A DNA stretch of 64,000 nt from Isoptericola halotolerans (GTDB taxonomy: Bacteria; Actinomycetota; Actinomycetes; Actinomycetales; Cellulomonadaceae). The DNA is taken from NCBI RefSeq assembly GCF_003003075.1, contig NZ_PVTX01000002.1, positions 372,001 to 436,000 of the forward strand. Reading direction: 5' to 3'. The first letter of the stretch is position 1, and each line of letters starts with the position of its first letter. The translations under genes were made by a program, and so were the position numbers. Under the pieces are notes generated by a model that was not told where the DNA came from, made no database searches, and saw nothing but the letters and a program-made list of their open reading frames with translations. Below, in pieces: positions 43,120 through 52,510 of this stretch.

Positions 43120-44454
43120 TCACCGCGCCGCCGGGGAGCGGGGGAGGTCGACCTCGGCGGGGTGGCGCGCGCCGCGGAACCACATCAGCGCCGCGACGGC
43201 GAGGTAGGCCAGCGCCAGGAGGACGAACAGCCCCCGCGACCAGCCGTCGTCGGGCACCGCGAACGCGGCGAGGACGGCGGCGCCGACGAACGCCGCGTTG
43301 TAGAGCACGTCGTAGAACGCGAACGCGCGGCCCCGGTAGTCGTCGTGCGTGTCGCGCTGGACGATGGTGTCGACGGCGATCTTGGCGCTCTGCGCGGCGA
43401 GCCCCAGCAGGCCCGCACCGACGAGGACCACGGTGCGCGACGGCGTCGTGGCCAGCAGAAGCTGCGAGGCCGCCGCGAGCAGCAGCATGCACACGATCCA
43501 GCCCTGCGGACCCGTGCGGCGGGACAGCACCGGGGTGATGAGGACCGCGCAGGCGCCGCCGACGCCCGTCATCGCGATGACGAGGGCGAAGTTCGCCAGG
43601 CCGGCCGACGTGTCGCCCGGCTCGGCCAGCAGATTGCGCGAGATGAGGATCGCCGCGATGAACACGACGCCGTAGAGGAACCGGTGCGCGGCCATGACGA
43701 GCAGGCCCTGCCCGGGCGTCCGTCGGGCGACGAGGTACCGGGCGCCGTCGACCAGGCCGCGGGCGACCGCGGCGATCTCCGCCCCGAGGCGCCCGCGGAC
43801 CGGGTGCTCGGGACCGAGCTGGTCGCGGCCCAGGCGCAGCGCCAGCAGGCCGGCCACACCGAAGACGACGGACGCGCAGACGAGCGCCGCGGCGTCGTGC
43901 ATCCGGCCGGGCGCGAGGCCGAGCCCCAGGAGGAAGCCGACGCCCCCGCCGAGGAACACCGCTCCGGCGCCCAGCGTGGGCGTCAGCGAGTTCGCGGTGA
44001 GGAGCAGGGGTCCGTCGACGACGCGGGGGAGTCCCGCGCTCAGCGCAGCGAGCAGGAACCGGTTGACGCTCAGGGCGGTCAGCCCCAGGACGATCACGAC
44101 GGCCTCGCCCGCGCCCGACAGGCCTCCGGTCAGCATCACGGCCGCCATCGCGCCCGTGAGGACCAACCGCACCAGGTTGCCGACGGCGAGCACCTGCCGG
44201 CGGCGCCACCGGTCCAGCAGCACGCCGGCGAACGGGCCGACGAGCGTGAACGGGGCCAGCATGATCGCGAACGCGCCCGCGACGCCCGCCGCCGTCCCGG
44301 CCCGCTCCGGGGAGAAGAACAGCAGCGACGCCAGACCCACCTGGAACATGCCGTCACCGGCCTGGGAGACCAGGCGCACAGCGAAGAGCCGCCGGAAGCC
44401 CGACAGGCGCAGCAGAGCGCGCAGGTCCTGCCAGGTCTCGCTGAGGGCGCCCAC
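43120..44454 (-). CDS. MFS transporter (MFS_3/enterobactin-exporter type)
   Basis: 444-residue transporter with 12 predicted helices; opens GFRRLFAVRLVSQAGDGMFQ and has motif A LLDRWRRRQVL (about 79-89). GTG 44454 with AAAGG nine bases upstream. Substrate unknown. A 20-nt periodic palindromic array lies just upstream. Confidence 0.88.
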   Translation of the reverse strand: MGALSETWQDLRALLRLSGFRRLFAVRLVSQAGDGMFQVGLASLLFFSPERAGTAAGVAGAFAIMLAPFTLVGPFAGVLLDRWRRRQVLAVGNLVRLVLTGAMAAVMLTGGLSGAGEAVVIVLGLTALSVNRFLLAALSAGLPRVVDGPLLLTANSLTPTLGAGAVFLGGGVGFLLGLGLAPGRMHDAAALVCASVVFGVAGLLALRLGRDQLGPEHPVRGRLGAEIAAVARGLVDGARYLVARRTPGQGLLVMAAHRFLYGVVFIAAILISRNLLAEPGDTSAGLANFALVIAMTGVGGACAVLITPVLSRRTGPQGWIVCMLLLAAASQLLLATTPSRTVVLVGAGLLGLAAQSAKIAVDTIVQRDTHDDYRGRAFAFYDVLYNAAFVGAAVLAAFAVPDDGWSRGLFVLLALAYLAVAALMWFRGARHPAEVDLPRSPAAR

Positions 44455-44743
44455 GCAGGCCAGCCTTTCACGTCGGTCCTGCGGAGGATGGAGCGCTCGG
44501 CGACGTCGGTCCCGTCGCCCAGGGACGAGGCGCGAGGTAGCGCGGCGTCGGCCGAGGTAGCGCGAGGGGCGCCGAGGTAGTGCGGGACGCGCCGAGGTAG
44601 TGCGGGACGCGCCGAGGTAGTACTACCTCGGCGCGTCGTCCACTACCTCGGCGTGCGAGCTACTACCTCGCGCCGGGCTCGCTCCAGGTCAGCGCTCCAC
44701 CTGGATGGTCGCGATCGTCCTGCGCTCGCAGGCTCGCTACGGA
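44455..44743. other. Intergenic region between ino1 and an MFS gene
   Basis: 289 bases without a gene. The left part holds the MFS ribosome-binding site, 44533-44670 is a periodic palindromic array, and 44700-44743 shows nothing recognisable. The array follows the ino1 stop and so may also end ino1 transcription. Confidence 0.7.
44533..44670. repeat. 20-nt periodic palindromic array of CGAGGTAG units
   Basis: Eight copies of CGAGGTAG. Five are direct, starting at 44533, 44553, 44573, 44593 and 44613. Three are inverted (CTACCTCG), at 44623, 44643 and 44663. The spacing is exactly 20 bases within each set. The central pair forms a 32-base perfect palindrome at 44606-44637. Spacers of about 12 bases vary at the edges and repeat (TGCGGGACGCGC) near the centre. 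Confidence 0.9.
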
Positions 44744-45835
44744 CTATCGCTCCACGTCACCGCGGATGAAGGCCTCCAGGTGCCGGCGGCCCTCGGTGTC
44801 CTCCATCTGCACGGGCGGGGACTTCATGAAGTACGTCGACGCCGACAGGATCGGCCCGCCGGTGCCGCGGTCCTTCGCGATCTTCGCGGCGCGGATGGCG
44901 TCGATGATGATGCCGGCCGAGTTGGGGGAGTCCCACACCTCGAGCTTGTACTCGAGGCTGATCGGGGCCTCGCCGAACGCGCGACCCTCGAGGCGGACGT
45001 ACGCCCACTTGCGGTCGTCGAGCCAGGCCACGTAGTCCGACGGCCCGATGTGGACGTTGCGGTCCTCCGTCTTGCCACCGAGCGCGCCGGTGAGGTTGGA
45101 GGTCACGGCCTGGGTCTTCGAGACCTTCTTCGACTCGAGCCGGTCGCGCTGCAGCATGTTCTTGAAGTCCATGTTGCCGCCGACGTTGAGCTGGTACGTA
45201 CGGTCCAGCACCACGCCGCGGTCCTCGAAGAGCTTCGCGAGCACGCGGTGCGTGATCGTCGCGCCGACCTGGGACTTGATGTCGTCACCGACGATCGGCA
45301 CGCCGGCGTCCTCGAACTTCTTCGCCCAGACGGGGTCGGAGGCGATGAACACGGGCAGGGCGTTGACGAACGCGACGCCCGCGTCGATGGCGCACTGGGC
45401 GTAGAACTTGTCGGCCTCCTCGGAGCCCACCGGGAGGTAGGAGACGAGGACGTCCACGCGGGCGTCCTTGAGCGCCTGCACGACGTCGACGGCCTCACGG
45501 TCGGACTCGTCGATCGTCGCGGCGTAGTAGTCGCCGAGGCCGTCGAGCGTCGGACCGCGCTGGACCATGACGCCCGTGGGCGCCACGTCCGCGATCTTGA
45601 TGGTGTTGTTCTCCGAGGCGTGGATCGCCTCGGCCAGGTCGAAGCCGACCTTCTTCGCGTCGACGTCGAACGCCGCCACGAACTCGAGGTCGCGCACGTG
45701 GTATTCACCGAACTGCACGTGCATGAGACCCGGGACGGTGTCGGACGGGTCGGCGTCGCGGTAGTAGTGCACACCCTGGACCAGGGACGATGCACAGTTT
45801 CCGACGCCGACGATGGCAACGCGGACGGAGGTCAT
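44744..45835 (-). CDS. ino1: Inositol-3-phosphate synthase
   Basis: 363-residue NAD-dependent enzyme converting glucose 6-phosphate to 1L-myo-inositol 1-phosphate, the first step to phosphatidylinositol, mannosides and mycothiol in actinobacteria. NAD motif [12 protein letters not shown] (10-21), [10 protein letters not shown], and the catalytic region [20 protein letters not shown] (about 218-237). Start overlaps the stop of the padR gene (ATGA), so it is co-translated with its likely regulator. Mycobacteria have the same pair (Rv0046c-Rv0047c). Confidence 0.95.
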
Positions 45836-51329: not shown

Positions 51330-51350
51330 TGCATGCCGCAGGGGAGCGCG

Positions 51351-51410
51351 TTCGGCAGTTCCTGCTTTGTTCGGCAGTTCCAACTGCCGAACGCGGCACG
51401 AAGTGCCGAA
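51351..51410. repeat. 19-nt periodic palindromic element, left copy
   Basis: Four 10-base units: TTCGGCAGTT at 51351 and 51370 (direct), AACTGCCGAA at 51382 and AAGTGCCGAA at 51401 (inverted). 9-base spacers give a 19-base period; the centre is CC at 51380-51381. The inner pair plus a flanking base on each side is a palindrome at 51369-51392. Lies between the rplI terminator and the AbiEi-like gene. Confidence 0.9.
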
Positions 51411-51471
51411 CGAGGGGACGAGCCTGTGGACAGCCGGCACGGGGACCGTGCCCCGGCGCCAGGCTGGGAGC

Positions 51472-52438: not shown

Positions 52439-52498
52439 TTCGGCACTTCCTGCCTCGTTCGGCAGTTCCAACTGCCGAACGAGGCAGGATGTGCCGAA
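52439..52498. repeat. 19-nt periodic palindromic element, right copy
   Basis: Four 10-base units: TTCGGCACTT (52439), TTCGGCAGTT (52458), AACTGCCGAA (52470), ATGTGCCGAA (52489). Spacers are 9 bases and the centre is CC, the same geometry as the copy at 51351-51410. A 34-base perfect-arm palindrome spans 52452-52485. Lies between the AbiEi-like gene and the MATE gene stop. Confidence 0.9.
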
Positions 52499-52510
52499 CG
52501 AGAGGGGCGC

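Follow-up and report, generated by a model that had tools for sequence, protein, structure and literature searches.

Phased 20-bp arrays of species-specific words at gene 3' ends in Isoptericola and its relatives

The window analysed here is a 64-kb stretch (64,000 nucleotides) of the Isoptericola halotolerans genome (the source genome, G000), and it holds, next to the 3' end of ino1, an array of one eight-letter word, CGAGGTAG (Table 1). The direct half-array repeats this word at a 20-bp period with 12-bp variable spacers and is antisense to both flanking genes; the inverted half-array is sense to ino1 and begins 73 bp past the ino1 stop codon. The lattices of the two strands are mutually offset by 10 bp, and the MFS transporter gene starts 78 bp beyond the array. 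A preliminary description had reported five direct and three inverted units at exact 20-base steps between 44533 and 44670, which proved correct to the base, and the 32-base perfect palindrome that it placed at their convergence was recovered.

Table 1. Features of the ino1 locus, in window coordinates.
Feature	Position	Strand	Remarks
Direct half-array, five CGAGGTAG units	44533..44620	+	unit starts 44533, 44553, 44573, 44593, 44613
Inverted half-array, three units	44623..44670	-	units 44623-44630, 44643-44650, 44663-44670
32-bp perfect palindrome with CGAGGTAGTACTACCTCG core	44606..44637	.	meeting point of the two half-arrays
ino1, myo-inositol-1-phosphate synthase (Inos-1-P_synth)	44744..45835	-	array follows its 3' end
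MFS transporter gene	43120..44454	-	next gene, same direction as ino1

The word occurs 14 times in the window, compared with 1.41 occurrences expected from dinucleotide shuffles (sd 1.08), and none of 100 such shuffles matched this count. Its six copies outside the array are all single and all lie within predicted genes. No Rfam family was found at the array site. Two other palindromic structures were seen in the window. A separate hairpin, GAGCGATAGTCC...GGACGATCGCGACC, overlaps the ino1 stop codon (44675-44746, minus strand) in a near-duplicated stop-codon context; it is also present at the ino1 3' ends of G002, G005, G007, G009, G012 and G016, with CTGACCT...AGGTC variants outside the source genome, and resembles a REP-like family whose members overlap stop codons. 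Another palindromic element, ~60 bp long (TTCGGCA[CG]TTCC...), consists of two units spaced at 19 bp that face two more in reverse orientation; it lies at 51350-51411 and 52439-52499, with a further copy near 2478 of the sampled stretch L085. The two window copies flank one predicted gene of unknown family, and the second adjoins a MatE gene. This element looks like a copied mobile hairpin, because its spacers are conserved too.

The ino1 array is one copy of a genome-wide family that sits at gene 3' ends and uses species-specific words, which extends the view taken in the preliminary description. A search of the 3.85-Mb source genome at 20-base spacing returned 226 word-N12-word pairs (139 forward, 87 reverse) and none for the backwards-read control; a randomly placed unit lacking the 20-bp phase was not what was seen. 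Spacing was analysed in 20 stretches of the source genome including the window (L072-L090), 18 stretches of G012 and fewer from other species, an uneven sampling in which most stretches were chosen for containing arrays. Same-strand neighbours no more than 130 bp apart were separated by exactly 20 bp in 115 of 124 cases, the remainder being six distances of 40 and one each of 21, 45 and 90. Where runs on opposite strands interleave or touch, the offset was 10 modulo 20 in 23 of 26 pairs; a handful of tightly facing arrays supplied these pairs, and they are not independent observations. Perfect words filled 157 of the 163 in-phase slots within runs, which by definition begin and end in perfect words, and the other six slots carried one mismatch. 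The preliminary description had also suggested cooperative protein binding on one face of the DNA; the phase behind that suggestion holds across the family, and the binding protein itself is putative.

Constraint reaches past the 8-mer as a short species-specific tail, namely TGC in the source genome, CGC in G017, GGCAA in G001 and G006, and TTC in G004. The G017 array L219 (19443-19630) varies in the fourth letter of the word (CGACGTAG, CGAGGTAG) and keeps CGA.GTAGCGC constant, which suggests from its sequence that the real site may be longer than eight letters. Spacers matched at a mean of 7.63 of 12 positions within arrays and 5.87 between loci. In this spacer comparison, many arrays are alike only in the word. 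Spacers common to different loci formed 30 pairs, compared with a column-shuffle mean of 10.9 (maximum 22 in 60 shuffles), an excess hinting at unit exchange. Unit numbers vary among arrays, and L075 contains identical neighbouring units.

Several of these features are shared with the species-specific tandem repeats, constant at 20-21 or 52 nt, that have been described in bacteria (Subirana and Messeguer 2021, PMC8161180). In the passages of that paper on these satellites, a short signal is common to the arrays of one genome (TCGCGG in B. weihaiensis) and the function of the satellites is given as unknown; actinobacteria are mentioned, two helical turns are noted, and a polymerising protein or small RNAs are suggested. 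Like the 20-21 nt satellites as described there, the present arrays are non-coding, keep a fixed step (strictly 20 nt, outside genes), occur several times per genome with one genome-wide short signal, differ between species and are patchily distributed. We file the family as a variant of the constant-size 20-21 nt class described in those passages. Unlike what those passages report, its arrays are bound in position to the 3' ends and stop codons of genes, its facing lattices are offset by 10 bp, its words switch at fixed sites and its spacers turn over, and relative to them these four properties are new. A titles-level literature search returned no description of the word, of Isoptericola or Cellulosimicrobium repeats, or of actinobacterial 3'-end tandem repeats matching the family.

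Placement was determined with a simple codon-usage gene caller built for this analysis. Across the eight species sampled, none of 89 runs lay inside a predicted gene and 86 of the 89 adjoined a gene 3' end. In the source genome, 31 of 35 runs are sense after a gene 3' end, and the other four are antisense partners of facing pairs. The TAG of the word is itself the stop codon in 15 of 30 array-bearing genes there, supplied by the first unit in 12 genes and by the second in three; TAG makes up 37 of 214 predicted stops. The sense orientation does not hold in every species: tandem-gene contexts in G003 hold four sense and six antisense runs, and some G003 genes end on the TGA of the reversed word. 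No shared function was found among array-bearing genes in a scan of 28 proteins, with ino1 included and the MFS gene kept apart; the scan covered 28 of the 30 listed genes (L084:9990-13670 was left out), and three of the 28 slots hinge on our own gene calls.

REP, REPIN and BIME palindromes are likewise placed at 3' ends, form inverted pairs and contain GTAG. The GTAG-containing word, its 3'-end placement and its inverted pairs would thus suit mobile palindromes of this type moved by a RAYT transposase. However, only the word of 8-12 bp is common to the copies here and not a whole element, as the between-locus spacers show, and the RAYT-type transposase domain Y1_Tnp (PF01797) was found in none of the 18 genus genomes, having been detected in 5 of 14 control genomes. 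We regard this origin as very improbable. Tandem transposase sites of about 20 bp are also a feature of Tn7/Mu-like ends; these were rejected, as Mu-transpos_C (PF09299) occurs in 5 of 18 genomes and not in the source genome, yet is present in G002 and G009, which have no arrays. CRISPR arrays have repeats of a few tens of bp and longer unique spacers, and occur at one or a few loci together with cas genes; the 8-12 bp word, the 12-bp spacer and the many loci do not fit this pattern, and no Rfam family was found at the site. A plasmid or phage origin was rejected after distant blastn searches that gave six weak hits each (best E 0.7 for plasmids and 0.2 for phages). Among viral contigs, two stretches contained the exact three-unit word, both being 10-bp repeats; the degenerate pattern recovered these two and 15 more (17 in all), and the additional ones looked unrelated or of low complexity.

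The exact word pair was found in 11 of 18 genus genomes and 35 of 200 family genomes, and the exact triple in one of 396 genomes of a phylum sample, namely the source genome. Named hits belong mainly to Isoptericola and Krasilnikoviella, with others in Oerskovia flava, a Cellulosimicrobium, a record labelled Sphaerisporangium cinnabarinum and one stretch (L189) from an Anaerolineales MAG. A degenerate triple (CGASNNAG) was detected in 14 of 18 genus genomes and 29 of 200 family genomes, several of the latter with one match only that may be due to chance. Other species use other words in the same architecture: CGASTCAG in G003 and G008, for which the backwards control also matches because this word reads nearly the same reversed, CGAGATAG in G102 and CGAGCAAG in G067. 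The facing CGAGATAG array of G102 has the same design as the window array at ino1. G102 (L270) belongs to family genus g10, in which 1 of 11 genomes in the degenerate-triple survey has arrays, and it has 123 triple matches of its word; its arrays are a candidate recent gain. In family genus g8, facing versions at 20-21 bp were observed in L068, L069 and L070, with spacers conserved too and perfect palindromes of up to 38 bp. No 20-bp CGASNNAG arrays were found in G002, G007, G009 and G014, and the system is therefore dispensable. A search of 100 kb each of the array-less G002 and G007 found no other 20-bp word family; a single perfect repeat of three copies was seen in G002.

Species-specific variants of one word are known from the DNA uptake sequence dialects of Neisseriaceae. 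The word variants here, in their fixed frame CGASNNAG, resemble such dialects, and a DNA-uptake sequence would account for them; unlike uptake dialects, the present words stand in strict arrays and single words are not enriched, with six outside the array in 64 kb of the source genome versus 17 in 100 kb of the array-less G007 (small samples). We find a role in uptake scarcely credible.

Orthologous sites were compared between the source genome and its close relative G012, whose ino1 is 97% identical; eleven pairs of orthologous runs were tried and ten were comparable. Site and word are the same in these pairs, and unit numbers differ in most. In nine of the ten, spacer similarity does not exceed that between unrelated loci, even with 39 of 40 or 36 of 40 positions identical in the abutting flank; the ungapped 40-bp flanks of other pairs show far less similarity. 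One likely homologous spacer is retained in the tenth pair (P = 0.03). Within the genus, the word itself can change at a fixed gene end. The ino1 end carries CGAGGTAG in G000, G001, G006, G012 and G017, CGASTCAG in G003 and G008, and reversed CGAGTCAG in G013. Different words, in opposite orientation, follow a deaminase gene in G000 (L079) and G003 (L279), and different words also follow an alpha/beta-hydrolase gene in G000 (L076) and G013 (L215). Alignment positions further indicate gain or loss of whole arrays: G008 lacks the L073 array, and the record of Isoptericola sp. AK164 lacks that of L086.

These comparisons bear on whether the arrays are a neutral or selfish satellite, in which a short word would spread and expand through slippage, with 3' ends the only places that tolerate it. 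Variable unit numbers, the identical neighbours in L075, spacer sharing above that of shuffles and the patchy distribution are all consistent with such an origin. However, a neutral satellite should mutate evenly, and here the word is kept and the spacers are lost; several sites, moreover, hold their place across species despite different words. This origin is accordingly improbable in our judgement.

A long hairpin RNA after ino1 had been offered in the preliminary description as the other possible function. This fits the window locus, where the array folds at -144.5 kcal/mol (z -5.48), but not the family. The 16 facing arrays have a mean RNA fold z of -2.06 and the G012 ino1 array forms a 29-pair stem, as would be expected if facing arrays folded into a long modular transcript hairpin that terminates or protects the RNA. 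Against such an RNA-level element, the 13 arrays with no facing partner have a mean z of -0.43, with no excess structure, and exact 20- and 10-bp phasing is a property of the double helix, not of an RNA stem. We consider it unlikely; because the 20-bp phase is held genome-wide, phased protein binding stays the better idea.

In position, the arrays resemble intrinsic terminator hairpins, and at ino1 of the source genome the array forms the strongest hairpin; unlike such terminators, many arrays are one-directional and unstructured. Where the ino1 3' region lacks words, a strong hairpin is present in 8 of 8 species. Among the nine species that have words there, array words form part of the best hairpin in five, the best hairpin is weak in two more, and G013 and G017 combine words with a strong separate hairpin. 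At the L078 site, arrays are found in G000 and G004 and a visible GC hairpin in G002. Hairpin scores of at least 25 were obtained, with arrays left unmasked, for 44% of 32 array-bearing 3' regions compared with 64% of 72 others; with arrays masked, array-bearing regions showed no hairpin deficit relative to matched controls (mean percentile 0.63, n = 32).

Based on these data, we propose that the arrays are phased double-stranded sites for a putative DNA-binding protein of shifting specificity, and that a loaded array stops or insulates transcription at operon ends, a tentative reading to which we give a probability of about 0.42. Each unit would be an asymmetric site of 8-12 bp that carries the single word of its genome; successive units stand exactly 20 bp, or two helical turns, apart, and lattices that face each other are shifted by 10 bp, or one turn. 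These sites would load a putative sequence-specific protein whose copies line up next to one another along double-stranded DNA. From its position directly behind a stop codon, in many cases opposite a second array between convergent genes, the loaded array would then stop or insulate transcription, replacing or helping a hairpin terminator. Drift of the protein's specificity between species would change the word and leave the site in place. The two-turn phasing, the use of either orientation in some species and the absence of excess RNA structure in unpaired arrays together point to a protein that recognises double-stranded DNA. Termination or insulation is favoured as its role because of the position of the arrays, the hairpin pattern at ino1 and the exchange of hairpin and array at L078, and it is weakened because G013 and G017 keep a strong hairpin and the masked comparison lacks a deficit. 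The proposal as a whole also has against it that some species of the genus do without the arrays and that the genes bearing them have no function in common.

An array-bound protein could instead act on the nucleoid, in division occlusion, compaction or segregation, with 3' ends serving as harmless places for chromosome-organising sites. The number of loci, a few dozen to a hundred per genome, would suit such sites, and nucleoid stabilisation is among the proposals in the passages on satellites in PMC8161180. In G006, the 1.1-Mb arc opposite dnaA holds one locus of 32 (P = 0.005), but the mean distance from the antipode gives only P = 0.06; the contig begins with an ORF that we take to be dnaA. 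G003, which uses another word, has a dnaA homologue at about 2.666 Mb and is denser on the origin side in the listed part, with 13 loci in the 1.71-Mb terminus side versus 20 in 1.21 Mb of the origin side among loci listed to 2.916 Mb. A pure terminator need not show such a trend towards oriC as is seen in these two genomes. However, the trend is modest and in part post hoc, the distribution of core genes could account for it, and chromosome organisation gives no account of placement abutting stop codons or of the hairpin exchange at ino1. We hold it to be a minority reading, unlikely and still of some weight.

The proposed transcription-stopping sites for a DNA-binding protein also admit a stronger form, which we judge to be rather doubtful: a single fast-evolving trans-acting factor per genome might set its dialect, so that a shift in specificity would cause the words to be rewritten to match at dozens of unchanging sites behind genes, and active rebuilding of arrays would refill the 12-bp spacers with unrelated sequence. 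A published and unexplained class of satellites gains a testable anatomy here, consisting of a word, a lattice, a gene-end position and natural word swaps among close relatives. Should the word be read by a protein, that protein would represent a new kind of gene-end factor whose specificity changes rapidly, and it should be findable by comparison of gene content, as one genus contains both array-positive and array-negative species. Were the dialect reading true, these bacteria would possess a system for marking gene ends that has both a writer and a reader of its own.
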